From NCBI RefSeq assembly GCF_900108115.1, contig NZ_FTPU01000013.1, forward strand, positions 1 through 64,000: a stretch of DNA of 64,000 nucleotides, read 5' to 3'. Source of the stretch: Epilithonimonas bovis DSM 19482 (lineage in GTDB: Bacteria; Bacteroidota; Bacteroidia; Flavobacteriales; Weeksellaceae). Below are positions 301-47,206 of the stretch, one piece after another. The notes beneath the pieces are model-generated. The model saw only the letters and a program-made list of their open reading frames with translations. It had not been told where the DNA came from and did not search any database. Position 1 is the stretch's first letter, and every line of letters begins with the position of its first letter. A program made the position numbers and the translations under genes.

Positions 301-470
301 TAAGCAGGAAAAAATTCTCCATTTGGTGGCAAGGCAGTTGCTGTTTTGACACCTAATTTGTTGGTAAGCAAATTATCTGTTGTTATGAAGGTCTCAATAT
401 TAAGGCTTTCAGTATTCAAACGTTTTTTTGAATAAGAAACAGCTGAACTCAATTTTATTTTTTCTTTCAT
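258..470 (-). pseudogene. hsdS N-terminal fragment, truncated by the IS
   Basis: The frame starts at ATG 470-468, overlapping the TGA of the recombinase upstream by one base (TGATG), so the two are translationally coupled. The first ~55 residues carry the signature of a type I restriction specificity subunit start: a hydrophilic strand, then FITTDNLLTNKLGV and a following ALPPNGEFF, matching the usual YISTxNMLPNK...LP start of HsdS proteins. After about position 300 the frame runs into IS DNA and the remaining target-recognition domain is missing. It is probably a silent inverted cassette of a shuffling hsdS locus that was later hit by the IS. Confidence 0.65.
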
Positions 471-1462
471 CAACTTATAAATTTTCGATGTGCAATTTTC
501 ACATTAGACTGATTCACCATTGCATAATGCAAGGTCGTATCAATCTTTACGTGACCTAATAATTTCTGTACTTGTTCAATCGGCATTCCCTTATCTATCG
601 CCATTGTAGCCAATGTTCGTCTGAATTTATGCGGATGTACTTTATTGATTTGTGTTTTCAGTCCAAGCTTTCGTAGCACATTTTCTACGCCACCAATAGA
701 AAGTCTTTGATGCGGTTTTGATAGTGAGACAAAGAGCGCTTCATTGTCATCAGTTCGGGTTTTCAGATATTGTTTTAAGTGAATTTTGGTTCGTGCATCA
801 AAATAAACTTCCCTTTCTTTATTTCCTTTTCCGGTTACAATACAAGAACGTTCGTGGAAATCAATGTCTTTTCGGTTGATTTTCACAAGTTCACCTACAC
901 GAATTCCTGTTGAACTAAGAATTTCAATAAGCGTAAGATCTCTTATTTCCTTACAGTTGTCTCTTAAAATTTCTATTTCTTCATCACTCAAAATTTCTTT
1001 AATAATTCTAGGCGTTTTAACTTTATGAATTCTTCTCACTGGACTTTTTAAGATGTAATCCTCATCTTCTAAAAATGAGAAAAAGCTCGAAAATATCCGG
1101 CGTATATTATCAATGGTAACTTTACTTGAATTTTTACTTTCTTGATAATCCGAAAGATAGAATCTTAGATCGTTGGTAGAAATTTCGGTAACTTTTTTAC
1201 TTAGCTTTTTAAAAAGTGTATCAATTGTTGAAAAATAATATTTCAACGATTTTTCAGAGCAACCTTCTACTTTTTTTGAAGAAATAAACAAGCTGAGAAT
1301 AGATTGGTTATTTTCTGTAAAATGTTGATTTTCTATATTTTGATTGGTAATTTCTACATTGTGAAAACTCTGATGAATTACCTTTTCTAACATCATCATC
1401 TGCTGAAAATTCAAAACAGTATTCATTGCACTCATAATTTCTTGTTTCACTAATTCCCTCAT
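470..1462 (-). CDS. tyrosine site-specific recombinase, XerC/D family
   Basis: This is a 330-residue recombinase that cuts and rejoins DNA through a tyrosine-DNA link. The SAM-like N-terminal core-binding domain spans roughly residues 50-140 and the catalytic domain about 155-330. Visible active-site residues are the arginine in TGIRVGEL (~188), a lysine in the GKGNKER beta hairpin, HKFR (HxxR), LLGH and the nucleophile in LHYAMV. It is coupled to an hsdS start downstream and lies next to another hsdS fragment in the opposite orientation. That layout is typical of Bacteroidetes loci where the recombinase inverts hsdS segments to switch DNA-recognition specificity. It could instead be an island integrase, but the coupling favours hsdS shuffling. 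Confidence 0.85.
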   Translation of the reverse strand: MRELVKQEIMSAMNTVLNFQQMMMLEKVIHQSFHNVEITNQNIENQHFTENNQSILSLFISSKKVEGCSEKSLKYYFSTIDTLFKKLSKKVTEISTNDLRFYLSDYQESKNSSKVTIDNIRRIFSSFFSFLEDEDYILKSPVRRIHKVKTPRIIKEILSDEEIEILRDNCKEIRDLTLIEILSSTGIRVGELVKINRKDIDFHERSCIVTGKGNKEREVYFDARTKIHLKQYLKTRTDDNEALFVSLSKPHQRLSIGGVENVLRKLGLKTQINKVHPHKFRRTLATMAIDKGMPIEQVQKLLGHVKIDTTLHYAMVNQSNVKIAHRKFIS

Positions 1463-1532
1463 TGGTTGCTATTTTATTTAAAATTTAAAAAACCACAAAG
1501 AAATGGAAAACAAAAATAGCTAAAGTTGGTGG

Positions 1533-2279
1533 CTAAATGATAATTTAGAGCAGATGGCAAAAACGCTTTATGATTATTGGTTTGTACAATTTGATTTCCC
1601 CGATGAAAACGGAAAACCCTATAAATCAAGCGGTGGCAAGATGGTTTGGAATGAAGTTTTGAAAAGGGAAATTCCGATTGGATGGGAACTTAAAATTATT
1701 GGCGATTATTGTAAATCTAGAGGAGGCTTTGCATTTAAGTCAAGTTGGTGGACTACTTTTGGAGAATCTGTTATAAAAATTAAAGATATTCAAGAAAACT
1801 GCACATTGAATCTAAGTGATTTATCTTTAGTCAATTTAGAAGGTAAGAATATTGATGATAAATTTAAAGCTAAAGCTGGAGATATTGTTATTGCAATGAC
1901 GGGAGCTACTGTTGGAAAATATGCAATTGTACCTAACACCAACAAACAACTTTATGTAAATCAACGTGTTGGTTATTTTGATTTAGGTTTGTCGCCAACT
2001 ATAAAATTGCCTTATTTAATAAATTCTTTAAATCAAAAATATTTTAGAGAAGCTATTTTCACATTGGCAAGTGGAGCAGCACAACCCAATATAAGTAATG
2101 AACAAATTAATAGCATACAATTATTAATGCCGACAAATCAGTTAATTGAAAATTTTAATTCTCAATTAAAATCAAGTTACGATAAGATTTTAAATAATCA
2201 GAATGAAAACCAACAACTTAGCTCATTACGCGACTGGCTTTTACCCATGCTGATGAATGGACAGGTAAAAGTTGAGTAA
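1533..2279 (+). pseudogene. hsdS C-terminal half (headless specificity cassette)
   Basis: The frame opens after TAA at 1521-1523; coding character begins at about 1533 with LNDNLEQMAKTLYDYW, the central conserved segment found in the middle of full HsdS proteins. The first recognisable methionine is at 1554. The second target-recognition domain and the closing LRDWLLPMLMNGQVKVE, typical of HsdS C-termini, follow. The first half, about 180 residues, is absent. With no promoter or start, it is likely a storage cassette that becomes expressed only when recombined behind an hsdS head. The breakpoint lies in the central repeat region where site-specific inversion is expected. No hsdM or hsdR is in the window. 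Confidence 0.7.
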
Positions 2280-2419: not shown

Positions 2420-4924
2420 ATGACAGTTCAAGAATATTTAGAATTACACAATAAGTCTTATCAAGTAATAACAGAAAATTATTTTTCAGATTTTAATGGC
2501 ATATTTGAAAGTGAAAAAAATAAAAATTGGCTTGTTCCTATTGAAAGTAAACTAGATAAATTAAATAGTTCACAAAGTCGTCAAGATATTCAATATGTGA
2601 TAGATGTTTTAAAGTCTGATCAGGATTTTAAAGAAAGCGATACGGATAAATTAGGTGTTTTTACTTCTAAAATTAATTCCATCGTTAAAGTTGCAGATCG
2701 AATAAACAATTTTAAAGAAAATACAACTCTTGAAGATGGAGCAAAATTAAGACTCTTTAATTTATTTAATACTATAAAATCTACAACGAATTTAAGTGAT
2801 TTCAATTACGTTTTGAATAAGAATCTTAATTCATTTAAGTCACATATATTTTCTGTGATCAAGCATTGTCAGAATCCATTAATGTATCCTGTTTATTATC
2901 CGTTCTGGCAAAATTTAAGTAAGCATATCTTGAAGAGCAGTGCAAATTATGATGCTATGTGTGTTTTTTATAGCACGTTTCCAAAAGAAAACAGAACTTT
3001 AGCTTTTGGTAGCTATTTTGGTACTTTAGCTAAATTGTTAATTGAAGGAATAAAAGAAGAAAAAGAGGTAAACAAGAATGAAGTTATAGTCTACCTAAAG
3101 GAAAAAGTAATTAATATAAAGGAATATGTTGATTTATTAGACAAAATAAATACTGAAACAAATGATATGAAAAAATATTGGATCTATTCACCTGGTGAAA
3201 ATGCTTACAAATGGGATGGTCTTTATGAGGAAGGAATAATGGCTTTAGGTTGGGATGATTTAGGAAACTTGAATGAATATAATAATAAAAATGAGATTCA
3301 ACAAAAACTAATTTCAGTTTATGATAGTAAGACAAATCGGAATAATGACGCAATTGCCAATTACGATTTTGCAAATACAATAAATGTTGGAGACATAATA
3401 ATTGTAAAAAAAGGGAGATATGAACTTTTAGGTTATGGTGAAGTTATTTCTGATTATTATTTTGATGAAGAAAAAGATGATTATAAACATTGTAGAAAAG
3501 TTGACTGGAAAGCAACAGGTAATTGGGGAGTAGGTCATACTTTAGTCATGAAGACCTTGACAGACATAACAACATACAACTCTGAAAAACTAATTGGCAA
3601 GAAATATTATGAAGAACTTTTATCTATTATTAAAGGTAACTTAATTTTACCCAGTGCGAATGAAAGTAAAATTTCAAAAATACTTCAATACAAAAAACAA
3701 ATCATCCTCCAAGGTCCTCCTGGAACAGGTAAGACAAGATCAGCTAAAAATATAGCATTAGAAATGTTGGGTCTTTATGATGTGAATGAACTAGGAGACA
3801 GCGAACAATTCAAACTTATTCAATTTCACCCAAGTTATACCTATGAAGATTTTGTAAGAGGAATTATTGCAAAACCAAATCCTGATGGTGAAGGGATTTT
3901 TTTTGAAGCTGAGAACAAAACTTTGGGTTTATTTGCCAAAGAGGCTTTGAAAAATTATCAACTAAGTTCTGAAAAGATTTCATCAACAAATATTGATATA
4001 TGGGTGAATGACAATTTTGAAGATTTTAAAAATGAAATAGAAAAAGATGTAGAAGAAAGCGAAATTAACTTATCTGGAAATATTAATTTGTTTAAAGTAG
4101 AGGTTGATAATTTTAGATATGGTAAAGATTGGGCTTCACCTTCTAGAATTAATTTTTCGGATTTCAAAATATTAATAAAAGCAGTTCTGGAAAGTCAATT
4201 AGTGATTTCATTACAAAAGATTCCAAAAGAACTTTCTGTTCACGCACATTATCGTTATACTTATTACAATGCTTTACTGAAAAAATTCTTTGATAATTAT
4301 TCTTATAATGGGGAAACTTATTCAGAAACTCGGAAAAACTACGTCCTAATAATCGATGAAATCAACCGAGCTAATCTTTCATCTGTTTTAGGAGAACTCA
4401 TTTATGCTTTAGAGTACCGTGGTGAAAATGTAGAGTCTATGTACAAAGTAGGAGATTCAAACAAATTAACTCTCCCCCCAAATCTATACATTATTGGTAC
4501 AATGAATACCGCAGACAGAAGTGTCGGTCATATCGACTATGCAATTAGAAGACGTTTTGCTTTCGTAGATGTGTTGCCAAAAAATTTAGAATCAGAATTA
4601 AAAGATGATTTTAAGGTTGATCTTTTTGCTAAAGTTGCGTCATTATTTATTGAAAACTATGATGTAGCTATTGATTATTCGGATGAGAATGTGGTGATGA
4701 AAAAGTCAGAATATATGACTGGAGATTTCGATCCTAAAGATGTTTGGTTGGGACATTCTTATTTTATTCAGCATTATGAAAAAAATGAGATAGGTGAAGA
4801 TATTAAAGAAAAACCTGTTGATTTCAGTTTTAGAATTAGGTACGAAATAAAACCTATCCTAGAAGAATATATAAAAGATGGTATTTTGAAAGAATCGGCA
4901 AGAAGTATAATTAATTCTCTTTAA
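2420..4924 (+). CDS. mcrB: McrB-type AAA+ GTPase of a methylation-dependent restriction system
   Basis: This 834-residue motor subunit should, with McrC, translocate on and cut modified DNA. After an alpha-helical N-terminus (~1-245) there is a PUA/EVE-like module starting at YWIYSPGENAYKW (~252-390), a fold that in other proteins reads modified bases. The AAA+ domain has Walker A GPPGTGKT (~432), Walker B VLIIDEINRANL (~642) and the McrB signature GTMNTADRSVGHID (~692) followed by an arginine-rich IRRRF segment. The partner mcrC starts 13 bp downstream. The N-terminal region differs from the E. coli DUF3578 DNA-binding domain, so the preferred modification cannot be stated. Confidence 0.92.
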   Translation: MTVQEYLELHNKSYQVITENYFSDFNGIFESEKNKNWLVPIESKLDKLNSSQSRQDIQYVIDVLKSDQDFKESDTDKLGVFTSKINSIVKVADRINNFKENTTLEDGAKLRLFNLFNTIKSTTNLSDFNYVLNKNLNSFKSHIFSVIKHCQNPLMYPVYYPFWQNLSKHILKSSANYDAMCVFYSTFPKENRTLAFGSYFGTLAKLLIEGIKEEKEVNKNEVIVYLKEKVINIKEYVDLLDKINTETNDMKKYWIYSPGENAYKWDGLYEEGIMALGWDDLGNLNEYNNKNEIQQKLISVYDSKTNRNNDAIANYDFANTINVGDIIIVKKGRYELLGYGEVISDYYFDEEKDDYKHCRKVDWKATGNWGVGHTLVMKTLTDITTYNSEKLIGKKYYEELLSIIKGNLILPSANESKISKILQYKKQIILQGPPGTGKTRSAKNIALEMLGLYDVNELGDSEQFKLIQFHPSYTYEDFVRGIIAKPNPDGEGIFFEAENKTLGLFAKEALKNYQLSSEKISSTNIDIWVNDNFEDFKNEIEKDVEESEINLSGNINLFKVEVDNFRYGKDWASPSRINFSDFKILIKAVLESQLVISLQKIPKELSVHAHYRYTYYNALLKKFFDNYSYNGETYSETRKNYVLIIDEINRANLSSVLGELIYALEYRGENVESMYKVGDSNKLTLPPNLYIIGTMNTADRSVGHIDYAIRRRFAFVDVLPKNLESELKDDFKVDLFAKVASLFIENYDVAIDYSDENVVMKKSEYMTGDFDPKDVWLGHSYFIQHYEKNEIGEDIKEKPVDFSFRIRYEIKPILEEYIKDGILKESARSIINSL

Positions 4925-4936
4925 TCATATATTGGA

Positions 4937-6301
4937 ATGCTAAGAATTTCAGAACATTTTGAGTATTATCATAAAGACCATATTTCTATTTTTCAAAAAA
5001 TTGAAAATTGGGAGCACTATTTTAATTTATCAACTTTAGAAGATAAAATAAATTTTGAAAACGATGAAGAAAAAAACTGTGTTTCCATTTCATTAAATAG
5101 AAATTCTGAGGGAAACCAATACTCCTGCAGTATTTCTTCGTCTTATTATATTGGTTTAGATTGTTTTCCAAATTTAGGAGCGAACATCTATATTGAACCA
5201 AAGATTAATAATGAAGAAAAACAAGTAAATTATGTTCAAATGCTTTTGGAATCATTGAAAGAACCAGAAAACTTTGAACATTTAGATGGATTAATTTCTA
5301 CTAAATTCGATGAAGATTGGATTGAAATTGACAATCACTTACAACCACTTTTAACACCTTTTTTAATTGCCCAGTTTTTATCTGTTGTAAAAGATTTAGT
5401 AAAGAAGGGTTTGAAAAAATCATATTACGAAAAAGTTGAAAATTTAAACAATAGAGTTAAAGGAAAAGTATTGGTAGGACAACAAATCAAACAAAATATA
5501 CTTAAAAATCGTTATACAAAAACAATTTGTAAATTTCAGGAATTTGGCTTTGACATTGAATTAAACCAATTTTTGAAATTTGTTTTATCTCGTGTTTCAA
5601 TCCATTTGGAAGATTATTCGAAAAATTCAGATATATATATAAACGTAGTAGAAATTCAAAGATACTGCAATGGTGGTTTCCATCAGGTAAGCGACTATAC
5701 TTTCAGTAAATTGGATCTTAAAGAGAGTAATCCGTTTTTTAAAAACTATAATCGTGCAATTCAATTAGGAAATCAAATTTTGGCGTTAAATGACTACAAT
5801 ATTTCTAAAAACTCCAACAAAGCAAAAACATTGCATCCGCCATTTTGGATAGATATGAGTAAGTTATTTGAATTGTTTGTATTTGGAAAACTTCGTGAGA
5901 GATACTCTTTGGAAGGAGAAGTGCAATATCATAAAAAATTCAATAAACAAGAACCAGATTTTATTCTAAATACAAATTGTGGAATAAAAGCTGTTGTAGA
6001 TGCGAAGTACAAACCACGTTATTCAAATGGAAATCCCACGATGGAAGATGCACGACAATTGGCTGGCTATACCAGGTTAAATAGTGTTTACAGAGAATTG
6101 GGAATCGAGAATGATGACGTGATTTCTGCATATTTCATTTATCCCGGAAACTTAAATTTCACAGAAAAAGATCAGCACACTCAAGAAGATTTCAAAGTAA
6201 AAGAAGAAACTGAAGAAATTCCCCTTTTCGAAAGTTCATTCAGAGTTTCTTCTTCATATAAAAAAATGTATTTACAAGAAATTAATTTACTTGTGAATTA
6301 A
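4937..6301 (+). CDS. mcrC: McrC nuclease subunit
   Basis: At 454 residues this is close to the usual McrC-family length. A PD-(D/E)xK nuclease core is visible near the C-terminus: PDF at ~339, then a strand ending VVDAKYK (~352), the catalytic D...DxK pattern. The N-terminal half is the beta-rich region that binds the McrB ring. It is co-directional with mcrB, 13 bp apart, and so is an operon partner. It ends 17 bp from the stop of the convergent WYL-like gene, with only a weak AACTTT/AAAGTT hairpin between them. Confidence 0.92.
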   Translation: MLRISEHFEYYHKDHISIFQKIENWEHYFNLSTLEDKINFENDEEKNCVSISLNRNSEGNQYSCSISSSYYIGLDCFPNLGANIYIEPKINNEEKQVNYVQMLLESLKEPENFEHLDGLISTKFDEDWIEIDNHLQPLLTPFLIAQFLSVVKDLVKKGLKKSYYEKVENLNNRVKGKVLVGQQIKQNILKNRYTKTICKFQEFGFDIELNQFLKFVLSRVSIHLEDYSKNSDIYINVVEIQRYCNGGFHQVSDYTFSKLDLKESNPFFKNYNRAIQLGNQILALNDYNISKNSNKAKTLHPPFWIDMSKLFELFVFGKLRERYSLEGEVQYHKKFNKQEPDFILNTNCGIKAVVDAKYKPRYSNGNPTMEDARQLAGYTRLNSVYRELGIENDDVISAYFIYPGNLNFTEKDQHTQEDFKVKEETEEIPLFESSFRVSSSYKKMYLQEINLLVN

Positions 6302-6317: not shown

Positions 6318-7508
6318 TTACATTATTAAGTTTTCGAAATCTTTAGTTAAAGTCGATCGTTCAATAATGTTTTTTAAACGAAAATGACGAATGTCTCCTT
6401 TTCTTAATAAGCAATTTGCAATGATAAAAGTTTCTTCAATTTCATCTTCGTTTTCAAATGTGCTAGTAGAGCAATTGGTTATTATTCTTTGTGTAAATCT
6501 TCCTTTTCTGTCGGTATAGTTGATTTCATAAAACTTATCTTGCTCCCAAGATAATTTTTTTATATCATTAAAGACGCTCGACGAATAATCTGGAAATTTA
6601 TTTTTAGCTAAATCTGTAATTTTAAACTTCGTGGATTCAAAATCGAAATCTTGTAAATAAGCTGATTTCACTTTTTTTGAAAAATAGTCAGAATATACGA
6701 TTCGTACTTTATGATTTAAAAGAATTATGTTGATGATTTCAACTAACGTATTATTAATTTGACTTTTAGGATGTCCTTCAAATGGAGTGATTTTTGGAAT
6801 TTTAAATAATTTACTTCCACTCATACCCAATTGTATAATATCAATTTTTTCTTGATCAAAGATAACTTCCTCTACAATGTTAAAAGGGATAAAATCCTCG
6901 GAAAATGATTGTTTAGAAGGGTTAAACCATTTGCATTTTAATAAGAATTTGCAAGAATCTTTTTTCAAAGTACCATCTTTTGGATCTCTTCTATCTTTTA
7001 AAAATTTAGAATTTTCAACAACGTCAATTACGGTCATTACTGGCGGTAAGAAATCCATATAGGACTCAGTACGAAATTTTTCTTTATCACCTTCTTCACT
7101 CCAACTGATTTTCTTTTTCCCCAATTCTGCATCAGCAGTACTTAAAATCACTTGTTTTCCTTTATATTCTTTTTTTACAGTAGTTAATTCGGTTGGAACT
7201 TTTTTTTTACCCGCAATGTCCTCTTCTATATTCTCTTTTTCTGCACTAGTAATAGGAATTATTTCGTCAATATTAAACCAAAATTTTTCGTAATTACAAT
7301 TTTTAGAGTTATAGAAAGTGCCCAAAACTTGTCCTAAAAGTTTTTCTTCATTCTCAGAATCTGGATTGAATTTATTTTGCTTTAATATTTCAGTAACTAC
7401 CATAAGTGGTGGGGTCATTAAAGCATTTGCTCCAATTTTCGTCTTTTGATTTAAAGAATAAGGGTGGTTTTTTAAAGAAATAAGATCACCAATTTGTAAG
7501 TTACTCAT
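6318..7508 (-). CDS. unknown protein with a C-terminal WYL-like domain
   Basis: I do not recognise a named family for the whole 396 residues. The start reads MSNLQIGDLISLKNHPY and the N-terminal ~130 residues look like two small beta-barrel modules, each with a hydrophobic PPLMVVTEI / PPVMTVIDVV repeat (~33 and ~153). The last ~70 residues (FYEINYTDRKGRFTQR, then IIANCLLRKGDIRHFRLKNI) resemble a WYL domain, a ligand-sensing fold common in regulators of defence loci. There is no helix-turn-helix at the N-terminus. It is convergent with mcrC and divergent from the reverse transcriptase leader, so its promoter lies against the RT promoter at 7509-7535. Confidence 0.6.
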   Translation of the reverse strand: MSNLQIGDLISLKNHPYSLNQKTKIGANALMTPPLMVVTEILKQNKFNPDSENEEKLLGQVLGTFYNSKNCNYEKFWFNIDEIIPITSAEKENIEEDIAGKKKVPTELTTVKKEYKGKQVILSTADAELGKKKISWSEEGDKEKFRTESYMDFLPPVMTVIDVVENSKFLKDRRDPKDGTLKKDSCKFLLKCKWFNPSKQSFSEDFIPFNIVEEVIFDQEKIDIIQLGMSGSKLFKIPKITPFEGHPKSQINNTLVEIINIILLNHKVRIVYSDYFSKKVKSAYLQDFDFESTKFKITDLAKNKFPDYSSSVFNDIKKLSWEQDKFYEINYTDRKGRFTQRIITNCSTSTFENEDEIEETFIIANCLLRKGDIRHFRLKNIIERSTLTKDFENLIM

Positions 7509-7534: not shown

Positions 7535-7542
7535 TATATTTG
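7535..7542 (+). promoter_or_regulatory. -7 box of the RT leader promoter
   Basis: TATATTTG is a perfect match to the Bacteroidetes -7 consensus TAnnTTTG. It predicts a transcript starting near 7549, about 290 nt before the reverse transcriptase start codon. A clear -33 TTG element is not seen; the upstream sequence is T-rich. Confidence 0.65.
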
Positions 7543-7548
7543 ATGTAC

Positions 7549-7839
7549 TCGTAGGAAGTTGATTTTTTACATCTAGTCAGGACTACAGGACTTCGGTCTT
7601 ACTGCTTTTGCAGGATTAAAGTTTATCAAGCAGGTAATCTCCAACCAAGGAGCATCCACCTGTAAAGATAGCTAATAGGATTGTAATAATTGTTTTCATT
7701 AGATAATAATTTGCAGTTGAAGTTAAATCTTCGCCTAGTTTACGAACATTACAATGACTCAGTCAATGGGTACTAGTCCGCTCTTCGGAGGTATGTAAAT
7801 TTAATAATCATTATTGCTAGAACTTTCTACGGGGTTTTT
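7549..7839 (+). ncRNA. structured non-coding leader RNA of the reverse transcriptase
   Basis: The 290 nt between the promoter and the RT gene contain no ORF but many stems. There is a C(UUCG)G tetraloop hairpin (AGGAC/GTCTT, 7587-7600), a CTGC-TTTT-GCAG hairpin (7602-7613), and a two-part stem CAGGT..CTCC/GGAG..ACCTG (7631-7662). An 8-bp long-range stem ATTGTAAT/ATTACAAT (7680-7687 with 7748-7755) encloses TTCG/CGAA (7730-7746). A hairpin TACT-TCCG/CGGA-GGTA (7771-7793) sits near the end. Three CAGGAyTw copies (7578, 7586, 7611) and a U6 tract (7563-7568) lie in the 5' part. Size, position and structure match the template RNAs upstream of DRT2- and DRT9-type reverse transcriptases. The ends are inferred, not seen. 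Confidence 0.65.
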
Positions 7840-9453
7840 ATGAGAAATAATACAGACAAACCAAATTGGATGAAAACGAAGGGATATTTGCATTTGTCCC
7901 CGAGTTTACGCATCAATGAAAATTGGAAAAGTTATCAAAAGAAAATCCAAGATCCTTCTTTCATACAGAAATATGCTTTTTATCCTTTAATGCATGCGAT
8001 CATTAAAGAAAGGAAATATAAAAAAGTAAATTCGGAAAAACATTTAAATGAAAAAGAGAGGACGCATAATTTCAAACTCAATGATTTCAAATTTGAAAAA
8101 ACAGCAAAAAAAAGACCTCTTCATTATGCTACACATTTTGACGCTTTAATTTATGGATATTACGCCTCAATACTAAATGAATTGTATGAAACGGAATTAA
8201 AAAAAGACCTGGAACTTGATGGTTGTGTCAATGCTTACAGGAAAATTATTTTAGAAGATACAGGAAAGGGGAAGAGTACAATTCATTTTGCTAAAGACGT
8301 TTTTGATGAAATTAAAAATCGTAGCGGCGACCAAGAGGAAGTTGGCGTGCTAACTTTCGATATAGAAAGTTTTTTTTCTAGCTTAGACCATCAATTATTA
8401 GAGAAAAAGTGGAGTGATCTGTTGAATGAGGAACAATTACCTCCAGACCATAAAAATGTATTCAAATCATGTACAAAGTTCAGTTATGTTTTAAGAGATG
8501 ATTTGCGAATTAGGGTGCAAAAAAGTGGTAAAAGATCTGGTTTTAATGAAAAGAAATTAGCAAAAATTAGAAGAGAAAAAGGTTTTAAAAGTTTTTTTGA
8601 GTCAAACGCTGATTTTCGAGATACTATTAAACAAGGTAAGTTAAGAATCTATAAAAATTCTTTCTATAGACAGATTGGTGAAGAAAAAATACAAGCAGGT
8701 ATTCCTCAAGGATTACCGATAAGTGCCGTACTTGCAAATTTATATTTGTTGGATTTTGACAAACATATTATTGATACTGTCGTAAAGGATAAGGGTGGAT
8801 TTTATAGAAGATATTCAGATGATATTATTATAGTAGCAAATGTAGATGATCTAGGAGAAATAAAGAATTATATTGAAAATCTTATTAAACAAAGTAATCT
8901 AAAAATTAGTTCTTCAAAAACCGAATCTTTCATTTTTAGAAAATCAATATACAATCAAGAACAAAAAAGTAGACTAACTTCCTTTAAGCAGGTTGAAGGT
9001 AACGAAAGGAAAGACGCCCCTTTAATATACCTTGGATTTGAATTTCGAGGATACAATACTTGTATAAAATCAACAAATATTGCTAAATTTTATAGAAGAC
9101 TAATTTCTATCGTTCGACGAAGATCTAATCGAGCAAAAAGAAACAAAAACCCGAATATTCCAAAAGCAGTGTTTAAAAATCAAATTAAAAAATTATATAA
9201 AAAACCGCTACGGGATTTAGATGGGGAAAATGGAGAAATTAAACAGACTTTTCGGAATAGAACATTTCTTGTGGAAAATGAAAGAAATGAGTTTTCAATG
9301 ATCGTTAAACCATCTGTAAATAAAAATAAATCAAACTATTTTAGCTATATTAAAAGGTGTGAAAAAATTTTCGATAGTAAAATTTTTTCTAAACAGCTTC
9401 GGAAAAAAGAACATTTGCTAAACACCGCTATTGCAAAGCATTTGAATAAATAA
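7840..9453 (+). CDS. defence-associated reverse transcriptase (UG/DRT group)
   Basis: This 537-residue stand-alone reverse transcriptase carries RT motifs in order: an N-terminal RPLHYATHFDALIYGYY segment (~100), the first catalytic aspartate in LTFDIESFFSSLDH (~172), GIPQGLPISAVLANLYL (~287), the active site YRRYSDDIIIV (YSDD ~326) and the thumb-side IYLGFEF. There is no maturase, integrase or nuclease domain, which argues against a group II intron or retroelement. The long RT2-3 insertion and the C-terminal ~130 basic residues fit the unknown-group (DRT) enzymes that defend against phage. The structured leader directly upstream suggests a DRT2- or DRT9-like template RNA, but the clade was not assigned. 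It sits between McrBC and AbiE, consistent with a defence role. Confidence 0.85.
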   Translation: MRNNTDKPNWMKTKGYLHLSPSLRINENWKSYQKKIQDPSFIQKYAFYPLMHAIIKERKYKKVNSEKHLNEKERTHNFKLNDFKFEKTAKKRPLHYATHFDALIYGYYASILNELYETELKKDLELDGCVNAYRKIILEDTGKGKSTIHFAKDVFDEIKNRSGDQEEVGVLTFDIESFFSSLDHQLLEKKWSDLLNEEQLPPDHKNVFKSCTKFSYVLRDDLRIRVQKSGKRSGFNEKKLAKIRREKGFKSFFESNADFRDTIKQGKLRIYKNSFYRQIGEEKIQAGIPQGLPISAVLANLYLLDFDKHIIDTVVKDKGGFYRRYSDDIIIVANVDDLGEIKNYIENLIKQSNLKISSSKTESFIFRKSIYNQEQKSRLTSFKQVEGNERKDAPLIYLGFEFRGYNTCIKSTNIAKFYRRLISIVRRRSNRAKRNKNPNIPKAVFKNQIKKLYKKPLRDLDGENGEIKQTFRNRTFLVENERNEFSMIVKPSVNKNKSNYFSYIKRCEKIFDSKIFSKQLRKKEHLLNTAIAKHLNK

Positions 9454-9592: not shown

Positions 9593-10192
9593 GTGCAAAC
9601 CACTCATAATCATATAGAAACCAAGATTAAGAAATCTTCTAAGGGAAAAATATTTTTCGCAGAAGACTTTCTGAAATTTGGCTCAGCTGAGAATATTCGG
9701 CAAGTTCTGCGTCGGTTGGAAGAGCAGGGAGTTTTGGTTCGGTTGGCTCACGGAATTTATTTGGTTCCCAAGAAAGATGAGCTTTTGGGAACGGTCTATC
9801 CAAGCATCGAAGAAATTGCAAAGGAAATTGCGAAAAGAGATAAAGCCAGAATTGCACCTACGGGAGCGATGGCAATGTATTTGTTGGGACTTTCTACCCA
9901 AATTCCGCTACACGCAGTTTATCTTACAGATGGTGCGCAAAGAGAAATTAAAATAAGAAAAAGCATCATTAAATTTAAGAAAACTGCCCCAAGGAATTTG
10001 GCGGTTAAGGATGAATTACTTCAGCTCATCATTCAAGCATATAAAATAACTGGCGAGAAAAATATTTCAGAAGATTTTGAGGAAAAACTTACAGTCTATA
10101 TTAAGAAAATAGACGAGAAAGTATTAATGTCTCAATTGAAATATGCACCAGTTTGGATTCAGAAAAGAATAAAAAACAGATACCTTTCATAA
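9593..10192 (+). CDS. abiEi: AbiEi-family antitoxin / transcriptional repressor
   Basis: The 199-residue protein has a winged-helix DNA-binding N-terminus (about 20-70: a helix-turn-helix ending IRQVLRRLEEQGVLVRL, then a wing with HGIYLVPK) and the C-terminal AbiEi domain. It is the antitoxin of a type IV abortive-infection pair and represses the operon. The start is GTG at 9593, 19 bp after the operator; no ATG fits before the helix-turn-helix. The toxin gene begins 3 bp after its stop, so both are made from one message. Confidence 0.85.
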   Translation: MQTTHNHIETKIKKSSKGKIFFAEDFLKFGSAENIRQVLRRLEEQGVLVRLAHGIYLVPKKDELLGTVYPSIEEIAKEIAKRDKARIAPTGAMAMYLLGLSTQIPLHAVYLTDGAQREIKIRKSIIKFKKTAPRNLAVKDELLQLIIQAYKITGEKNISEDFEEKLTVYIKKIDEKVLMSQLKYAPVWIQKRIKNRYLS

Positions 10193-10194
10193 AA

Positions 10195-11190
10195 ATGTGG
10201 CATCAGCAACTTACTAAAGAACAAAGAATTGAAACCTTAAATCAACTCGCTCTATCAACAGGTTATGCGCCTTTTGCGATAGAGAAAGATTGGTGGGTTT
10301 GTATGGTGTTACGCGCTGTTTTTAAATCAAAATATAAAGACCAAATTATCTTCAAGGGTGGAACTTCTTTAAGCAAAGCTTATCAAATTATCGAACGGTT
10401 TTCGGAGGATGTCGATTTAATTATTGATAAAAATTTATTAGGATTTGCAGAAGATCCAGAAACCAAAACGCAAATGAAGAAACTTCGGAAGACCGCAGGA
10501 AAATTTGTAATCTCCGAATTTAGAGAAGAATTGGTTAAACAATTGGGAGAATTAGGGATTTCTGAGAATGAATACAAAATTAAATATTCTGAAATTGTTG
10601 ACGATCTTAGCGATCCAAATCACTTAGAATTAGTCTATAACAGTGTGATTCCACAAGAAAGTTATGTACAGCAAAAAGTTCTTATTGAAATGGGAGCAAG
10701 AGCAATGACAGAACCTTCGGAGAAAAAAATGGTACAATCATTTATAGAAAACCATTATAAAGATGCCCTTTTTTCATTGCCACAATTTGAAGTTTTGGTA
10801 ACTGTTCCTACAAAAACATTTTTAGAGAAAATACTTCTACTTCACGAAGAATTTTCAAAACCAACAGAGAGAATTAGAAGCGAGAGAATGAGTCGTCATT
10901 TGTTCGATTTGCACCAACTTTATCATACAGAATATGGGAAAAGTGCACTAATTGATGATAGCCTTTTTGAAAGAATTGTTGATTTTAGAAAAAGAATGAA
11001 TAATTCTAAGTGGATCAACTATGACAATCACAAAAAAGGTCTAATCAATATCATTCCTCCTCAAGAAATAATGAATAAATGGGAAGAAGATTACAGAATA
11101 ATGCAGGGAAGTATGATTGTAGGCGAGAGTCCGAACTTCAAAACTTTAATTGAAATAATGAAGGAAATTATGGGTAAATTGAACAATTAA
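10195..11190 (+). CDS. abiEii: AbiEii/AbiGii-family nucleotidyltransferase toxin
   Basis: The 331-residue toxin carries the nucleotidyltransferase core FKGGTSLSKAYQIIERFSED followed by VDLII (~45-70): the GGS/T-type loop and DxD metal-binding pair of the AbiEii family. It also has the conserved KDWWVCMVL helix before it and a C-terminal helical domain with SRHLFDLHQLYH. The ATG at 10195 was chosen because it begins the conserved MWHQQL region 3 bp after the antitoxin stop; an upstream in-frame start at 10153 overlaps abiEi and is less likely. AbiEii toxins are thought to transfer nucleotides to tRNA and halt growth on phage infection. Confidence 0.87.
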   Translation: MWHQQLTKEQRIETLNQLALSTGYAPFAIEKDWWVCMVLRAVFKSKYKDQIIFKGGTSLSKAYQIIERFSEDVDLIIDKNLLGFAEDPETKTQMKKLRKTAGKFVISEFREELVKQLGELGISENEYKIKYSEIVDDLSDPNHLELVYNSVIPQESYVQQKVLIEMGARAMTEPSEKKMVQSFIENHYKDALFSLPQFEVLVTVPTKTFLEKILLLHEEFSKPTERIRSERMSRHLFDLHQLYHTEYGKSALIDDSLFERIVDFRKRMNNSKWINYDNHKKGLINIIPPQEIMNKWEEDYRIMQGSMIVGESPNFKTLIEIMKEIMGKLNN

Positions 11191-11274
11191 TGAGATTCAG
11201 TAAGCTTAATGTTTAATAAATAATCTTTCACAAATTCTCTTATTTAGTATCATATTTGTACCATAAAAACATAA

Positions 11275-12170
11275 CTAATTGATTTTCAATATCCGTTATT
11301 TTCGAAGAATAAGAATCAATTTTTCAATTTTAATCATACTCCAAAACCGGGTGAAAGAGCTTCCACTGATTTTATGGCTCAAAGAAAGCCAATGTCTGAC
11401 AAAGAGTTTGAAAAATATGAAACGATGTTCCGACAGGTTCATAAAGAATTAAAAGAAGGAAAACGGAGATTAGCAGAATTTAATAATACCGAAACCAATC
11501 TTATCGAAGGGAAATTTTATTTAGTCGATGGTTTGTTAGCATATTTGGAAGTATCGAAAGCTGAAAAAATATTGAAAGAAAATACGTCTGGAGATCGAGT
11601 TCGATTAGAAGGTAGAACGGTAACGATTTTCGAAAATGGAACCAAATCGAATATGTTGTTTCGTTCTTTAGGGAAAGCCATCTTAAAAAACGGAAAATTA
11701 ATTACAGATACTGCAGAAAATATTGAAGATGAACTGTGGAAAAACGCTGGAATTGTTTCAGAAGAAGATGTAAAGAGTGGTTGGATCTATATTTTAAAAT
11801 CCAAATCTAGAAATTCAGAAATTTCTTCACTGAAAGATTTGTATAAAATTGGATTCTCAACTTCAAATGTTTCAGATAGAATTAAAAATGCGTCAAAAGA
11901 AGCTACTTATCTTTTTGCAGATGTAGATATGGTGGCAACTTATAAATGTTATAATTTAAACACCCAAAACTTCGAATCTTTGCTACATCGTTTTTTTGGA
12001 GAATGCTGTTTAAATGTGGATGTTTATAATGCAAAAAACAAAGAATCACCCCCAGAGAATGGTTTGTAGTTCCCCTAGAAATCATTGATGAAGTGATCAA
12101 TCTTATAATTTCTGGTGAGATATTGAACTACAGCCACGATGTTAAAAATCAAAAATTAGTTTTGAAGTAA
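11275..12170 (+). pseudogene. GIY-YIG (T5orf172-type) nuclease, truncated and frameshifted
   Basis: The first usable ATG is at 11374, but homology-like sequence continues in frame upstream to at least 11341 (KPGERASTDF before the ATG), so the N-terminus is lost. The 231-residue frame carries the family's helical region (EKYETMFRQVHKELKEGKR) and the GIY-YIG domain: GWIYILKS, LYKIGFST, RIKNASKEATYLFADV, FESLLHRFFGECCLNVDV. It stops at 12069 after a C5 run (12049-12053). One frame over, the expected ending continues as PREWFVVPLEIIDEVI... to TAA at 12168-12170. This is a one-base shift in a homopolymer, so either a real pseudogene or a sequencing error. Confidence 0.75.
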
Positions 12171-13143: not shown

Positions 13144-13189
13144 AAACTGGGTGTTGTTATCGTAAATAATTGATAATCAGCACTAAATG

Positions 13190-13276
13190 TAGAGAGGAAG
13201 GGATTCGAACCCTCGATACAGTTACCCGTATACTACCTTTCCAGGGTAGCTCCTTCAACCACTCGGACACCTCTCT
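13190..13276 (-). tRNA. tRNA-Ser (GGA anticodon)
   Basis: The minus strand folds as an 87-nt class II tRNA: acceptor AGAGAGG/CCTCTCT, the D-arm, an anticodon stem CTACC/GGTAG around loop CTGGAAA (anticodon GGA), a long variable arm, and a T-arm GAGGG-TTCGAAT-CCCTT. CCA is not encoded. The low-GC defence island begins on its 3' side, a common arrangement for tRNA-targeted islands. Confidence 0.93.
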
Positions 13277-40684: not shown

Positions 40685-41764
40685 ATGGGCCAAGATAAAG
40701 TAATCAGAAAAATTTTCGAAAATTCAAATCAGCACGATTTAATACGATTAGGTAATAAATTCGTAGATGACTTTCTTTTTGAAGATAATCAGATCGCCGA
40801 TATTCCAATTAATGCTTTGAGGGTAATTTTCAATATTGTCTCCCTACTAGCATCTGATCAGTTCCGCCCCCAAGATCACCCAAAACAACTAAGCTTATTT
40901 GATCAGGAATTTGAAACGGATAATAATGTATTTGCTGCAATGAAGATAAAAAACACTAAAATTTCACCTTCTGGTTCTACAAAACAAGTTATAGATGCTT
41001 ATGAATTTCTGACCAAGTTCAAAATGGGCTGGTATAAGTCAACGAACTGTCAAGGCAAGGAAATTAAGACTTACGGGGGTCTAATTTCTACTCCATCCTA
41101 TGACCAAAGGGGATATACAACGTTTCTAATTAGTAGTTACTGGTTAAAAAAATTAATGATTATTCCTGAATACAATATAGTCTTATACAATCTAGTGTAT
41201 AATATAAAAAACAACAAACATGTTTTATTTGCTATTTGGTTGAAAAAAATTCCTAATGCTGGAACACTTTTAAAACTTTCAACCTTCAATAAGAAATTTG
41301 GGCTTAACTATAAGAATACAAAAGATTTTTGTACTAAATTCTTGAATCCTGCGAGAGTTAACCTGGATAAATATAATGATCTAAGCTTCAATTATAAACA
41401 AGAATCCGGAAGTATTATAATAATTCCTTATTATACTAAGACAATTGAAGATCAAGAAATATCAATACATACAAAGGAAAATTTGGAAATAAAATATCGC
41501 TTGAATTATCTCCAAAAACGTTATGGATTATCAACTAATGATTTTAGCAATTTTGCTTACCATTATAAAAAAATGCCAACAACAAGAAAACTGATCGAAA
41601 ATGCTTATAAAGAATTTATTTCTCGAACAAGATCACAAAATGTGAAATCAACAGAGTACCAAGGTTCGGGTTTTTTGAAACAAATTCAGAGTATTATAAT
41701 TGAGTTTTATGGAGCATCTAAAGCTGCTCAATCCATTCCTAACGGTTATCCAAAAATTATGTAA
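40685..41764 (+). CDS. probable replication initiator protein
   Basis: 359 residues without a named family I can see, but with the general order of iteron-binding initiators: an N-terminal alpha/beta winged-helix region (~40-175) with SYWLKKLMIIPEY, and a second (~190-270) with LLKLSTFNKKFGLNYKNTKDF, LNPARVNLDKY. The stop is immediately followed by ten 16-bp iterons, the classic rep-ori layout of plasmids. The DNA-binding and initiator role is inferred from that context. Confidence 0.6.
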   Translation: MGQDKVIRKIFENSNQHDLIRLGNKFVDDFLFEDNQIADIPINALRVIFNIVSLLASDQFRPQDHPKQLSLFDQEFETDNNVFAAMKIKNTKISPSGSTKQVIDAYEFLTKFKMGWYKSTNCQGKEIKTYGGLISTPSYDQRGYTTFLISSYWLKKLMIIPEYNIVLYNLVYNIKNNKHVLFAIWLKKIPNAGTLLKLSTFNKKFGLNYKNTKDFCTKFLNPARVNLDKYNDLSFNYKQESGSIIIIPYYTKTIEDQEISIHTKENLEIKYRLNYLQKRYGLSTNDFSNFAYHYKKMPTTRKLIENAYKEFISRTRSQNVKSTEYQGSGFLKQIQSIIIEFYGASKAAQSIPNGYPKIM

Positions 41765-42512: not shown

Positions 42513-44336
42513 ATGAAAAATAAATACTTAACACTCGGGGCTTTAGTTATATCGCTTCTTTACGTTGATTTGTTTTGCGGAGCCGGTGGAACTTCTACCG
42601 GAGTTGAATCGGCCAAAGTGCACAATCAAAAGTGTGCAAAAGTGATTGCTTGTGTCAATCATGATGCTAATGCAATTGCATCACATGCATTTAACCATCC
42701 CGATACATTACATTTTACCGAAGACATTCGCACTTTAAATGTAAATAAAGATTCAGAACTAGTGAAGCATATCGCAGAAATGCGAAAAAAGTACCCATTT
42801 GCAAAGGTCGTTCTTTGGGCTTCCCTGGAATGCACAAATCACAGTAAGGCAAAAGGTGGAATGTCAAGGGATGCCGATAGTCGCACATTAGCCGAACATT
42901 TATTTCGATACATCGAAGCAATAAATCCAGATTCGATACAGATTGAAAATGTAGAAGAATTTTTAATATGGGGACCACTAATTCCTAAAGTAGTTGAAAA
43001 AGATGGAACTTCATATTGTCCATTAACACCTCTTATGAAGCCAATTTGGATTCCAGATCCAGAAAGGAAGTCAGAATATTATAATAAGTGGGTAGATAAA
43101 GTAAAAAAGTATTACTACAATTATGATTACCGAATTTTAAATTCTGCGGATTTTGGAGCTTTGACATCAAGAAAAAGATTCTTTGCACAATTCAATAAAT
43201 CTGAATTTCCGATTGTATGGCCGGAACCAACACACGCAAAAAATCCTGTTTCCGGATTGTTTGAAAGTTTGGAAAAATGGAGAGCTGTGAAAGAAGTTTT
43301 GGATTTTGATGATGAAGGTGTTTCAATATTTGGAAGAAAGAAACCATTGGTTGAAGCTTCATTGGAAAGAATTTGGCATGGTCTAATAAAGTTCGTTGCA
43401 GGTGGAAAAGATAAATGGTTATTGAAATACAATTCAATAAATAAAGAAACTAGAAAGCACACTCCACCAAGTATAGAAGAACCTTGTCCCGTTATTTCAA
43501 CACAAGGAAGATTGGGTATTATCACTTCAAAATTTTTATCAGCATATTATGGTAATGGCTTTACATCATCTGTCGATGAACCGTCTCCAACTGTTACTAC
43601 AGGAGATAGATTTTCATTAATCAGTTCAACTTTTATCGATCAGCAATTTGGGAAAAGCAAACCTGCTGGAATTAATACGGTATTGGGTTGCATAACGACT
43701 AACCCGAAATATGCAAAAATTTCTACTTTCATAATGAACCAGTATTCGGGCGGTGGACAATCATCTGATATTAATAAACCAGCCCCGGCAATTCTGGCAA
43801 CTCCGAAACAAAATCTAATCACCTGTGAAAAATGGGTGTTAAATACAAACTTTAAAAATACTGGAAGTTCAATTGATCAGCCTGCACCAACTGTGACAGC
43901 CAATAGGAAATGGCATTATCTGATGGATGCACAATATAGCAGAGTTGGGAATGATGTAGAACAGCCTTGCTTCACATTAATTGCAAGGATGGACAAAACA
44001 CCACCATATCTTATGGAAATTACTCAAAGCGGTAAAATACCATCTTTCATCAAAATAGATGGAAATGTTGTAATCTATGAAATTTATGAAGATGATACAC
44101 CAATGATGAAGAAAATTAAAGAGTTTATGGCATTGTATGGATTGTTGGACATCAAAATGAGAATGTTAAAAATTCAAGAGTTAAAAGAAATTATGGGGTT
44201 TCCGGCAGATTATAAATTAATAGGCACACAGGCAGAACAAAAAAAGTTTATTGGAAATGCAGTTGAAGTGACGATGGCCCGTAAAATATGTGAAGCATCT
44301 GCAAATAAATTATTGGAAATTAGAAAAGTTGCATAA
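42513..44336 (+). CDS. phage-type DNA cytosine-5 methyltransferase
   Basis: 607 residues. Motif I YVDLFCGAGGTSTGV (~16), the nucleophile motif IV reading ASLECTNHSKAKGG (Glu in place of the usual Pro before the cysteine, ~106), motif VI IENVEEF (~149), motif VIII SRKRFFAQF, and motif X at the end (IQELKEIMGFP, KKFIGNAVEV). Between VIII and IX lies a large recognition region built of four ~30-60-residue repeats with the core S-x-x-(Q/E)-P-x-x-T-(V/L). This repeat organisation is typical of large phage Dcm proteins. It likely protects element DNA from restriction. Confidence 0.88.
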   Translation: MKNKYLTLGALVISLLYVDLFCGAGGTSTGVESAKVHNQKCAKVIACVNHDANAIASHAFNHPDTLHFTEDIRTLNVNKDSELVKHIAEMRKKYPFAKVVLWASLECTNHSKAKGGMSRDADSRTLAEHLFRYIEAINPDSIQIENVEEFLIWGPLIPKVVEKDGTSYCPLTPLMKPIWIPDPERKSEYYNKWVDKVKKYYYNYDYRILNSADFGALTSRKRFFAQFNKSEFPIVWPEPTHAKNPVSGLFESLEKWRAVKEVLDFDDEGVSIFGRKKPLVEASLERIWHGLIKFVAGGKDKWLLKYNSINKETRKHTPPSIEEPCPVISTQGRLGIITSKFLSAYYGNGFTSSVDEPSPTVTTGDRFSLISSTFIDQQFGKSKPAGINTVLGCITTNPKYAKISTFIMNQYSGGGQSSDINKPAPAILATPKQNLITCEKWVLNTNFKNTGSSIDQPAPTVTANRKWHYLMDAQYSRVGNDVEQPCFTLIARMDKTPPYLMEITQSGKIPSFIKIDGNVVIYEIYEDDTPMMKKIKEFMALYGLLDIKMRMLKIQELKEIMGFPADYKLIGTQAEQKKFIGNAVEVTMARKICEASANKLLEIRKVA

Positions 44337-45877: not shown

Positions 45878-47206
45878 ATGAAAAACAAAAAGACTCAATT
45901 GTCTATTTTGGCAATAATGTTTTCTGCTACATTATTTGGACAAGTCGGAATCAACACTACAGATCCGCAAGTAACGTTAGATGTTCAAGGAAAACCTTCG
46001 GATTCAAAATCTTTAGATGGCGTATTACTTCCTAGAGTTACTGCCTCTGAACTCAAGCTGAAAATTTACAGCACAAATCATAAGGGTACTTTAATCTATG
46101 TCACAGAAGCATTTTCTAATGCTGCGGATGCCAATGGACAAGTTGAATTTGTAACCACTCCAGGCACATACCAATTCGATGGCACAAAGTGGCAATCTTA
46201 TTCTTTAGAAGAGAAGGATACTTTAAATTCTGTTGTTCTACGAGGAAAACATACCACAAAATCAATATCTTTTGGTAATACAGCATCTCCCTTTTTTTTG
46301 GGAGCTAACTCAGAGAATGAAAATATTTTTTTTATTAATCGTGATTTAGATCTTCGTTCTGACTTGATTGGAAAATACAATTTAGGTATTGGAATGTACA
46401 GTTTGTACTCTCTTACTGAAGGCAAATCAAATTCTTCTTACGGAAATTATTCTTTATCTAGTTTAAAGAAAGGCAATTCAAATTCAGCATTTGGAGTAAA
46501 CACAGGATACTTTTTAGAAGGAAATTTCAATTCATTATTTGGGCTATCTGCGGGTGAAAATGCTACTACAACTTCTTGGAATTCAATATTTGGTTCAGGA
46601 TCTGGTAAGTATTTATCAACTGGCTATAAAAATTCATTTTTTGGTGGTGGATCGGCTCAAAGAAATAATATAGGTAGTTTAAATTTTGTGGCAGGCTATT
46701 CAGCTGCATCCACAGGTGATATAGGCGATAGAAATATAATCATAGGCCCTTATGCCGGAAATTCGGTCACGGGGACAAAACCAGTTGGTAACAATAACAT
46801 TCTAATCGGTTTAGGTGCGGGATATAATGATAGCAGTCTCCAAAATAAGTTAATAATTCATTCAAATTCTGCACTATCTGGCTATTCTGCAACTTCAGAA
46901 GGAAATTTCACACCGGCTGGTGCTTTTGCTCAGAGTAATTTACAAAATGGATTAATTACGGGAGATTTCGTAGATCGATGGGTTAAGTTCAATGGCAAAT
47001 TTCAGATCAATCCTTCTTACATGCCCGCTGCAACCTCTGATTTTTCTTCCGTATTACTTCAAAATCCTACAACTGGCGATGTTGGCGTAAGTACGTTGTC
47101 TAATGTTATATCAAATGCAGGAATTGTACTTGTTCCTACGCCTCCGACAACAGGAAATTATATTCTTGAATCCAATAATGGTACAATGACCTGGGTAGCT
47201 AAATAA
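45878..47206 (+). CDS. secreted repeat protein, adhesin/tail-fibre-like
   Basis: 442 residues with a signal peptide (1-21, ...SATLFGQ) followed by VGINTTDPQVTLDVQG, the usual start of Bacteroidetes surface proteins. Residues ~150-290 hold short repeats with N-S-x-(S/A/L)-(F/Y)-G (NSSYG, NSAFG, NSLFG, NSIFG, NSFFG), like trimeric autotransporter heads. The C-terminus is PTPPTTGNYILESNNGTMTWVAK. It is probably exposed on the cell surface and may mediate attachment. It leads a three-gene run with the next two. Confidence 0.75.
   Translation: MKNKKTQLSILAIMFSATLFGQVGINTTDPQVTLDVQGKPSDSKSLDGVLLPRVTASELKLKIYSTNHKGTLIYVTEAFSNAADANGQVEFVTTPGTYQFDGTKWQSYSLEEKDTLNSVVLRGKHTTKSISFGNTASPFFLGANSENENIFFINRDLDLRSDLIGKYNLGIGMYSLYSLTEGKSNSSYGNYSLSSLKKGNSNSAFGVNTGYFLEGNFNSLFGLSAGENATTTSWNSIFGSGSGKYLSTGYKNSFFGGGSAQRNNIGSLNFVAGYSAASTGDIGDRNIIIGPYAGNSVTGTKPVGNNNILIGLGAGYNDSSLQNKLIIHSNSALSGYSATSEGNFTPAGAFAQSNLQNGLITGDFVDRWVKFNGKFQINPSYMPAATSDFSSVLLQNPTTGDVGVSTLSNVISNAGIVLVPTPPTTGNYILESNNGTMTWVAK

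Follow-up and report, generated by a model that had tools for sequence, protein, structure and literature searches.

The mechanism of the DRT2 (UG2) anti-phage system, one of the defence-associated reverse transcriptase (DRT) systems, has been published (Tang 2024, PMC11100668; Wilkinson 2024, PMC12039810). In Klebsiella pneumoniae DRT2, a reverse transcriptase (RT) of 425 residues is preceded by a non-coding RNA (ncRNA) of approximately 280–290 nt, which contains an internal template of about 120 nt lying between two copies of a 3-nt motif (ACA-1 and ACA-2). The length of the template unit is divisible by three and its antisense strand carries an endless frame, neo. The repeat junction falls between the −35 and −10 elements, so that the promoter is rebuilt by each junction, and the same paper describes 42 close homologues that are all endless and divisible by three (PMC12039810). 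Annotation of Neo is reported to be difficult in the more divergent clades of DRT2 (PMC11100668). DRT9 (UG28) likewise associates an RNA template with a UG RT (PMC12632851); this system copies a poly-U tract into poly-dA.

Here we describe a related locus in a 64,000-nt stretch (hereafter the window) of Epilithonimonas bovis DSM 19482 (contig NZ_FTPU01000013.1, positions 1–64,000), which very probably encodes an anti-phage system of DRT2 type from a Bacteroidota lineage, consisting of an RT, a template RNA and a divergent WYL-YodC gene, and in which the RT would make a repeated neo gene. The locus has in common with Klebsiella DRT2 the homologous RT, the size and position of the ncRNA and the design of the template. 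It seems to be a variant of the known system that departs from it in joining signals, in the layout of the promoter and in the partner gene. The jump motifs are UUU/UUU in the window and [A/U]UU in the 32 loci to which a template was assigned, rather than ACA; the junction would lie between a promoter, the candidate being a TAnnTTTG box within the unit, and the ATG, rather than between −35 and −10; and the RT is longer, at 537 residues. The divergent WYL-YodC gene, a subclade with finite units of length 3n+1 and the swapping of cassettes also set it apart. In contrast to DRT9, the unit is long and of mixed sequence, and Drt2 is the best profile match of the RT. The features of the locus are collected in Table 1.

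Table 1. Predicted and annotated features of the locus and its neighbourhood (positions in the window)
Feature	Position	Strand	Remarks
DRT2-type reverse transcriptase	7840–9453	+	537 residues, YSDD
Template cassette, unit LGEDLTSTANYYLMKTIITILLAIFTGGCSLVGDYLLDK	7622–7738	−	117 nt; reverse complement head to tail gives the predicted endless neo frame
Left UUU jump motif, ACA-1 counterpart	7622–7624	+	last identical bases before the window and E. hispanica diverge
Right UUU jump motif, ACA-2 counterpart	7739–7741	+	first identical bases past the variable cassette
Predicted neo start codon	7697–7699	−	cDNA position 40 of the unit
TATCTTTA, candidate neo promoter −7 box within the unit	7663–7670	−	5/6 consensus bases
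TATATTTG, −7 box of the ncRNA/RT promoter	7535–7542	+	conserved perfect TANNTTTG
Predicted ncRNA	7549–7839	+	ends predicted, the 5′ end by the −7 box and the 3′ end by the U-run following P1
P1 closing stem, 5′ strand	7548–7560	+	pairs with 7821–7833
P1 closing stem, 3′ strand	7821–7833	+	pairs with 7548–7560
P3, 5′ strand UUUACAU	7566–7572	+	pairs with 7793–7799
P3, 3′ strand AUGUAAA	7793–7799	+	pairs with 7566–7572
P2, 5′ strand GGACUA	7580–7585	+	pairs with 7774–7779
P2, 3′ strand UAGUCC	7774–7779	+	pairs with 7580–7585
Hairpin HP1, C(UUCG)G loop	7587–7600	+	both-side changes in 3/5 pairs (alignment of 21 loci)
Hairpin HP2, CUGC-UUUU-GCAG	7602–7613	+	just 5′ of the template; other stems there in homologues, by eye
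Hairpin HP3, ACUCA...UGGGU	7757–7771	+	5 pairs kept in 26/26
Hairpin HP4, CUC-UUCG-GAG	7781–7790	+	second C(UUCG)G; variable stem there in homologues, by eye
Accessory gene, PADLOC RTasWYL-YodC	6318–7508	−	396 residues; PADLOC E 5e-97
Tyrosine recombinase (XerA-like) adjoining hsdS piece (241 residues)	470–2279		
McrBC pair (McrB with PDC-S02-like stretch); AbiEi (DUF6088) and AbiEii; T5orf172 protein	2420–6301, 9593–12066		
tRNA-Ser	13189–13276		dense defence island close by

The reverse transcriptase and its leader RNA

Profile and tree comparisons place the RT as a divergent DRT2/UG2 enzyme. Amongst the PADLOC models it matches two Drt2 profiles best (418.9 and 261.2 bits), the next family being UG17 with 88.9 bits, and UG28, the family of DRT9, is absent among the matches listed (the best 25 of 43 families). 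The closest solved structure is the Klebsiella-type Drt2 9c0i (128 bits, residues 3–450), followed by Drt3a with 40 bits. The NCBIfam Drt2 equivalog NF041746 gives 315.1 bits over residues 10–530, which falls short of the curated cut-off of 390, and the NCBI rule would therefore not name this protein Drt2. The YxDD active site is intact, with D174, D327 and D328 invariant in 20 aligned rows. In a tree of 20 rows, 15 Bacteroidota rows including the window group together (support 97/93); the rows of this clade come from two families of the order, one of them that of the window, and from one Chitinophagaceae genome, and outside it are three Flavobacteriaceae rows and the two annotated drt2 rows, which sit on long branches in a tree rooted for drawing only. 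An original prediction, made without database searches, had proposed a DRT-type system, possibly of a divergent clade, centred on a 537-residue RT with a YSDD motif. The motif is indeed present at residues 325–328, both of the best PADLOC models are Drt2, and the sub-threshold NCBIfam score and the separation from annotated drt2 in the tree agree with a divergent clade. Of the 59 relatives searched, 5 gave an RT match, as did 13 of 395 genomes from the order and 11 of 395 from the phylum; at E < 1e-90, 21 of 320 genomes from the family matched, and all four counts include the window's own genome. At the same threshold 13 of 348 genomes of a further genus also matched. Distant relatives occur in 27 plasmid records and three phages, and none of 17 pattern stretches from viral contigs encodes a relative.

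Comparison across homologous loci indicates that the leader preceding the RT is a structured, covarying RNA scaffold. TAnnTTTG is the Bacteroidota-type −7 consensus, and the original prediction had noted such a box at the head of an open reading frame (ORF)-free, structured leader of 290 nt. The box is present and conserved in the clade. As a word, TANNTTTG occurs in the window at chance frequency (100 occurrences against 101 expected), but a perfect copy is found on the same strand 82–118 nt before the template in 32/32 assigned clade loci, compared with 14% of shuffles of this stretch; it is this conservation of position that makes the −7 box credible. The leader contains no conventional ORF of at least 80 residues and folds to −68.3 kcal/mol, compared with −59.05 for shuffled sequences (z −2.16, with 6 of 200 shuffles as low). 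The elements considered were nested helices and hairpins. From 5′ to 3′ they are P1a, P3a, P2a, HP1, HP2, template, HP3, P2b, HP4, P3b, P1b, the U-run and the RT start.

The strongest case within the scaffold, and the best-supported long-range stem on comparative grounds, is P1, which forms 9–17 contiguous pairs (G–U included) at the same place in all 20 representatives and in 18 of these is surpassed in length by no other stem, with strands as different as CUCGUAGGAAGUU/AACUUUCUACGGG in the window, AAAAGCCUUGAAAC/GUUUCAAGGCUUUU in locus L062 and ACCUUGCAGCCU/GGGCUGCAAGGU in L010. The mean pairing score of P1 is 26.3 with its own partner and 16.3, approximately the shuffle level, with swapped partners, for representatives that are not independent and comprise about nine stem sequences as judged by eye. 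With a narrower search interval P1 reached P < 0.05 in 17 of 20 loci; the other three (L058, 0.07; L057, 0.11; L032, 0.925) have P1 5′ strands that were cut or left out by this interval. Support for P2 is modest (own 13.9, swapped 11.0), its strands varying between GGACUA/UAGUCC, UGGAUC/GAUCCA, AGAUAA/UUAUCU and GAACAAA/UUUGUUC. P3 appears elsewhere as AAUUACA/UGUAAUU and other forms, and 55 of the 81 outer pairs beside its fixed UUAC/GUAA core form in 27 loci. Of the local stems, the C(UUCG)G hairpin HP1, which had been predicted, covaries, and HP3 is uninformative on pairing because its sequence hardly varies. RNAalifold recovered one hairpin from each plain MAFFT alignment, a low yield since the long-range partners sit in separate alignments; the long-range stems were tested with own versus swapped partners. 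When all pairing was pooled, own energies averaged −33.3 and swapped energies −23.5, and the own partner ranked first in only 10 of 20 rows, because close relatives pair equally well. An 8-bp long-range stem in the original prediction fared less well: if ATTGTAAT/ATTACAAT was meant, E. hispanica lacks the stem, its pairing is disrupted in E. tenax, and it looks like chance, ATTGTAAT being inside the template and ATTACAAT just 3′ of it. Both the covariation in homologues and the template-bearing RNA beside the RT otherwise favour that prediction. Neither the antisense neo frame nor the divergently oriented WYL-YodC gene was part of it.

The predicted template cassette and antisense neo frame

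Between the conserved flanks of the leader lies a hypervariable cassette. When the window is compared with L047/L008, the RNA flanks are 97–99% identical and the segment between them is unrelated (51% identity in global alignment; shuffled pairs give approximately 55% with slightly different gap costs). Identity with the sister locus ends exactly after the left UUU and resumes exactly at the right one. The two cassettes, of 117 and 141 nt, are both divisible by three and each, when reverse-complemented and joined in tandem, gives exactly one stop-free frame. The window has in common with the KpnDRT2-type subgroup that the unit is a multiple of three in length and that only one antisense frame runs through the junctions without a stop: over three units the antisense frames contain 0, 15 and 6 stops, and the open frame encodes 39 residues per unit, MKTIITILLAIFTGGCSLVGDYLLDKLGEDLTSTANYYL, repeated. 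E. tenax (L007) carries a cassette identical to that of the window, whereas the first 1,026 nt of the RT genes are just 88% identical. An identical cassette despite 12% RT divergence, together with unrelated cassettes within near-identical flanks, points to cassette exchange in this comparison of the window with L007, L046, L047 and L008, and cassettes seem to move separately from the enzyme.

The frame was then followed across the clade in 36 upstream regions, comprising the window and 35 loci with RT scores above 370 bits after removal of duplicates. L002 and L003, from the same genomes as L007 and L008, were dropped, as were L006 and L009, which hold the 3′ half of the gene at contig ends, and 31 located relatives scoring 370 bits or less were kept out of the main test. 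The left end of the unit was placed at an [A/U]UU 6–8 nt after the GG closing HP2 and the right end at an [A/U]UU 15–17 nt before the conserved AUGACUCA (variants allowed), which assigned 32 of the 36 loci. In 26 of these 32, the unit is divisible by three and has one endless antisense frame, with ten lengths ranging from 102 to 198 nt. For 11 template lineages (single linkage, 70% identity), the joint odds under mononucleotide shuffling are approximately 1e-17, including one third for each length, or 1e-12 when length is ignored. These odds are approximate owing to the freedom in placing unit ends, since the rule was first drawn up from the window and hispanica, and its limits were relaxed (GG-N6..8, [A/U]UU, right end 15–17) as further loci were read. 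In 11 pairs of related units, substitutions at codon positions 1, 2 and 3 number 113, 74 and 121 (p 0.002), a pattern that conservative hydrophobic change would give. A Pfam search with three predicted Neo proteins returned nothing above the cut-off.

The remaining six assigned loci belong to one subclade and all have units of length 3n+1 (196 nt in L054, L055 and L058; 190 nt in L056, L059 and L060). The junction given by the rule merges two antisense frames into a finite ORF of 68–73 residues, which ends in a charged tail, for example RQDDDR or EDKDDKVIK, and in L054, L055 and L058 the ATG of the next ORF begins 8 bases before the stop codon. In the tree, two of the six finite rows group together (100/100) beside a group containing endless and unassigned units, a placement by which the finite form looks derived.

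Several observations were made beyond the assigned set. Upstream of the RT in the four unassigned loci (L040, L061, L065 and L067), antisense frames are open over 213–345 nt, and taking two UUUA copies spaced by 189 nt in L067 as borders likewise yields an endless frame. A Flavobacteriaceae sister group (L011–L038; approximately 34–40% RT identity) has another scaffold, containing GAGUCGAGAAUUCGG in many members, and GUA-type borders. Of the relatives at 370 bits or below, 23 of 31 were read and GUA-type borders were set by eye in 19. In this exploratory reading, ten of the 19 have an endless antisense frame, including L013 and L025, in which the borders differ between two readings, and the longest ATG ORFs of the other nine are 43–59 residues long. 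L015, L020 and L024 have finite ORFs of 56–58 residues with similar ends (NTSNNK, NTSNK).

Promoter layout, rival explanations and the partner gene

The repeat unit probably contains its own Bacteroidota-type promoter box, as judged from its enrichment over the clade. A perfect TAnnTTTG is present on the antisense strand of 11/26 representatives, compared with 2.8 expected, and on the sense strand of one, and lies 17–59 nt after the ATG. The box is found in two codon phases and hence is not dictated by the protein. If this inner box is the promoter, only concatenation would put it upstream of the start codon. A promoter spanning the junction is rare outside the window and its nearest kin, and we therefore prefer the inner box as the general rule. 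That the inner box serves the WYL-YodC gene is less likely, as 17 of 21 scanned loci have a separate antisense match of at least 5/6 between that gene and the template; in the window, no separate antisense box above 4/6 is present in this interval.

A number of points weigh against a repeat-coded neo gene with an internal promoter. The inner box of the window, at 5/6, is at chance level (it occurs in 81% of shuffles of the unit) and has no TTG 17–22 nt before it; 5-of-6 matches are not enriched over the clade (25/26, with 21.6 expected); and the window and its nearest kin have a weak junction-spanning alternative, TTG-N18-TAACTTCA. Four loci are left unassigned by the boundary rule. Single units are short and AT-rich, being open by chance in 0.9–19% of dinucleotide shuffles (22 units), and the sense frame is also open in 7 of these 22, so that one unit alone proves little. 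Nonsynonymous codon changes outnumber synonymous ones (154 to 66). As a positive control, the same method finds a 105-nt ACA-bounded endless unit in the annotated drt2 locus L073, but none in L074 or L075, thus succeeding in one of three annotated loci. Finally, the transcript, cDNA, phage response and toxicity of this locus are predictions from sequence.

A simpler explanation would be a conventional small antisense gene, the chromosome encoding a hydrophobic type I toxin-like peptide from the ATG at 7699 (MKTIITILLAIFTGGCSLVGDYLLDK...) with no concatenation. The part from the ATG to the left boundary would make a plausible small membrane peptide, the chromosomal frame ends just past this boundary, and the perfect antisense box is enriched over the clade. 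We nevertheless regard such a gene as improbable, since it leaves unexplained why the length is divisible by three in the 26 endless units and why, in every one of them, the frame stays open upstream from the ATG as far as the right boundary; in the 11 units with a perfect box the box is downstream of the ATG (one has a further box upstream), and the six finite ORFs are whole only across the junction. It is just as improbable, in our estimate, that the repeated cDNA itself is the effector and the open frame incidental. The products of DRT9 are DNA and those of DRT10 may be, and Class 2 UG RTs are reported to have repetitive synthesis in common, with differing outcomes (PMC12632851), but an endless or junction-spanning frame occurs in 32/32 assigned loci and substitutions are biased by codon position. 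Hardest to credit, in our view, is an RNA that regulates the RT gene as a structured leader or attenuator, its variable segment being a neutral loop without any template role. This would suit an RNA directly upstream of the RT that folds better than most shuffles and has a U-run beside the RT start, but not a variable segment that is exchanged as a whole between sharp UUU borders and is under coding constraint, nor the nearest solved relative, which binds such an RNA as template (PMC12039810).

The DRT2-type reading, with a repeated neo gene, is accompanied in this clade by the WYL-YodC gene. A tblastn homologue is divergent and directly upstream at 35/35 clade loci that hold upstream DNA, with only residues 1–210 matching in L040. 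In a structural model (mean predicted local distance difference test score, pLDDT, 68.7), residues 216–301 resemble the WYL domains of BrxR (Z 8.0), DriD (7.8) and PafBC (7.8) in VIA-align, matches that are borderline by the tool's own yardstick. Over BrxR, DriD, CapW and PafBC the WYL-like fold is common to this segment with Z 6.4–8.0; these regulators differ from the partner in that no winged-helix N-terminus is recognised in its model, the N-terminal part being beta-rich and weakly matching small beta barrels. The structure entry for DriD is described as bound to single-stranded DNA, and by analogy it is only an idea that the partner senses single-stranded cDNA. In the open-licence PMC literature, covered mostly as titles and abstracts, we found nothing on the function of RTasWYL-YodC or its pairing with a neo template.

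Combining these features, we propose that the RT would bind the RNA scaffold and copy the template from 7738 down to 7622 by rolling-circle reverse transcription. The new cDNA 3′ end, AAA, would leave the left UUU and re-anneal to the right UUU, from which the next round would begin, so that 117-bp repeats would accumulate in tandem. Once the second strand had been made, the ATG of each repeat would, through the junction, come to lie downstream of the promoter box in the preceding repeat, and a repeating hydrophobic Neo protein would be made that stops growth and hence the phage. The chromosomal gene, permuted so that its promoter follows its start codon, would stay silent until copied, and exchange of the cassette would diversify the effector. 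The kinship of the RT, the RNA scaffold, the borders of the template and the antisense frame can be read from the sequence itself; binding, copying, triggering by phage, transcription and toxicity are all expected here from the likeness to DRT2. We are rather less confident, at somewhat below even, in a fuller account, in which a Bacteroidota DRT2 branch has swappable neo cassettes, UUU jump motifs (GUA in the sister branch) and a complete Bacteroidota promoter inside the unit, so that the junction would bring promoter and start codon together and would not have to rebuild the promoter; in one subclade the endless gene would have become an array of finite genes that are completed by the junctions and overlap slightly, the start of each preceding the stop of the one before, and control would lie with a WYL protein that may sense single-stranded cDNA.

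Neighbouring genes and significance of the clade

The RT lies in a defence island, as had been claimed for it, comprising the hsdS piece and integrase, McrBC, AbiEi/AbiEii, the T5orf172 protein and tRNA-Ser, the last being the sole match at gathering scores in an Rfam scan of the whole window. The XerA-like recombinase and hsdS piece make specificity switching possible; no inverted repeats of at least 16 nt for hsdS switching were found within positions 1–2600. Further along, four large ORFs (40685–41764, 45878–47206, 47218–49113 and 53566–54384) have no Pfam match at E 0.01, and a C5 cytosine methylase gene (42513–44336) is nearby; together they are maybe a mobile element.

Neither neo genes of Bacteroidota nor UUU jump motifs nor finite forms of neo are mentioned in the titles and abstracts found among open-licence PMC papers, and published supplementary trees may hold these loci. 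With borders, a jump motif and a predicted protein for 32 loci, as well as a candidate promoter, the clade of the window offers a testable answer to the question of how Neo is to be annotated in divergent DRT2 systems. If the finite 3n+1 class is true, being never-ending is not essential to a gene made by repeat copying. The exchange of cassettes between near-identical loci suggests that phages drive the diversification of the effector, rather than that of the enzyme.

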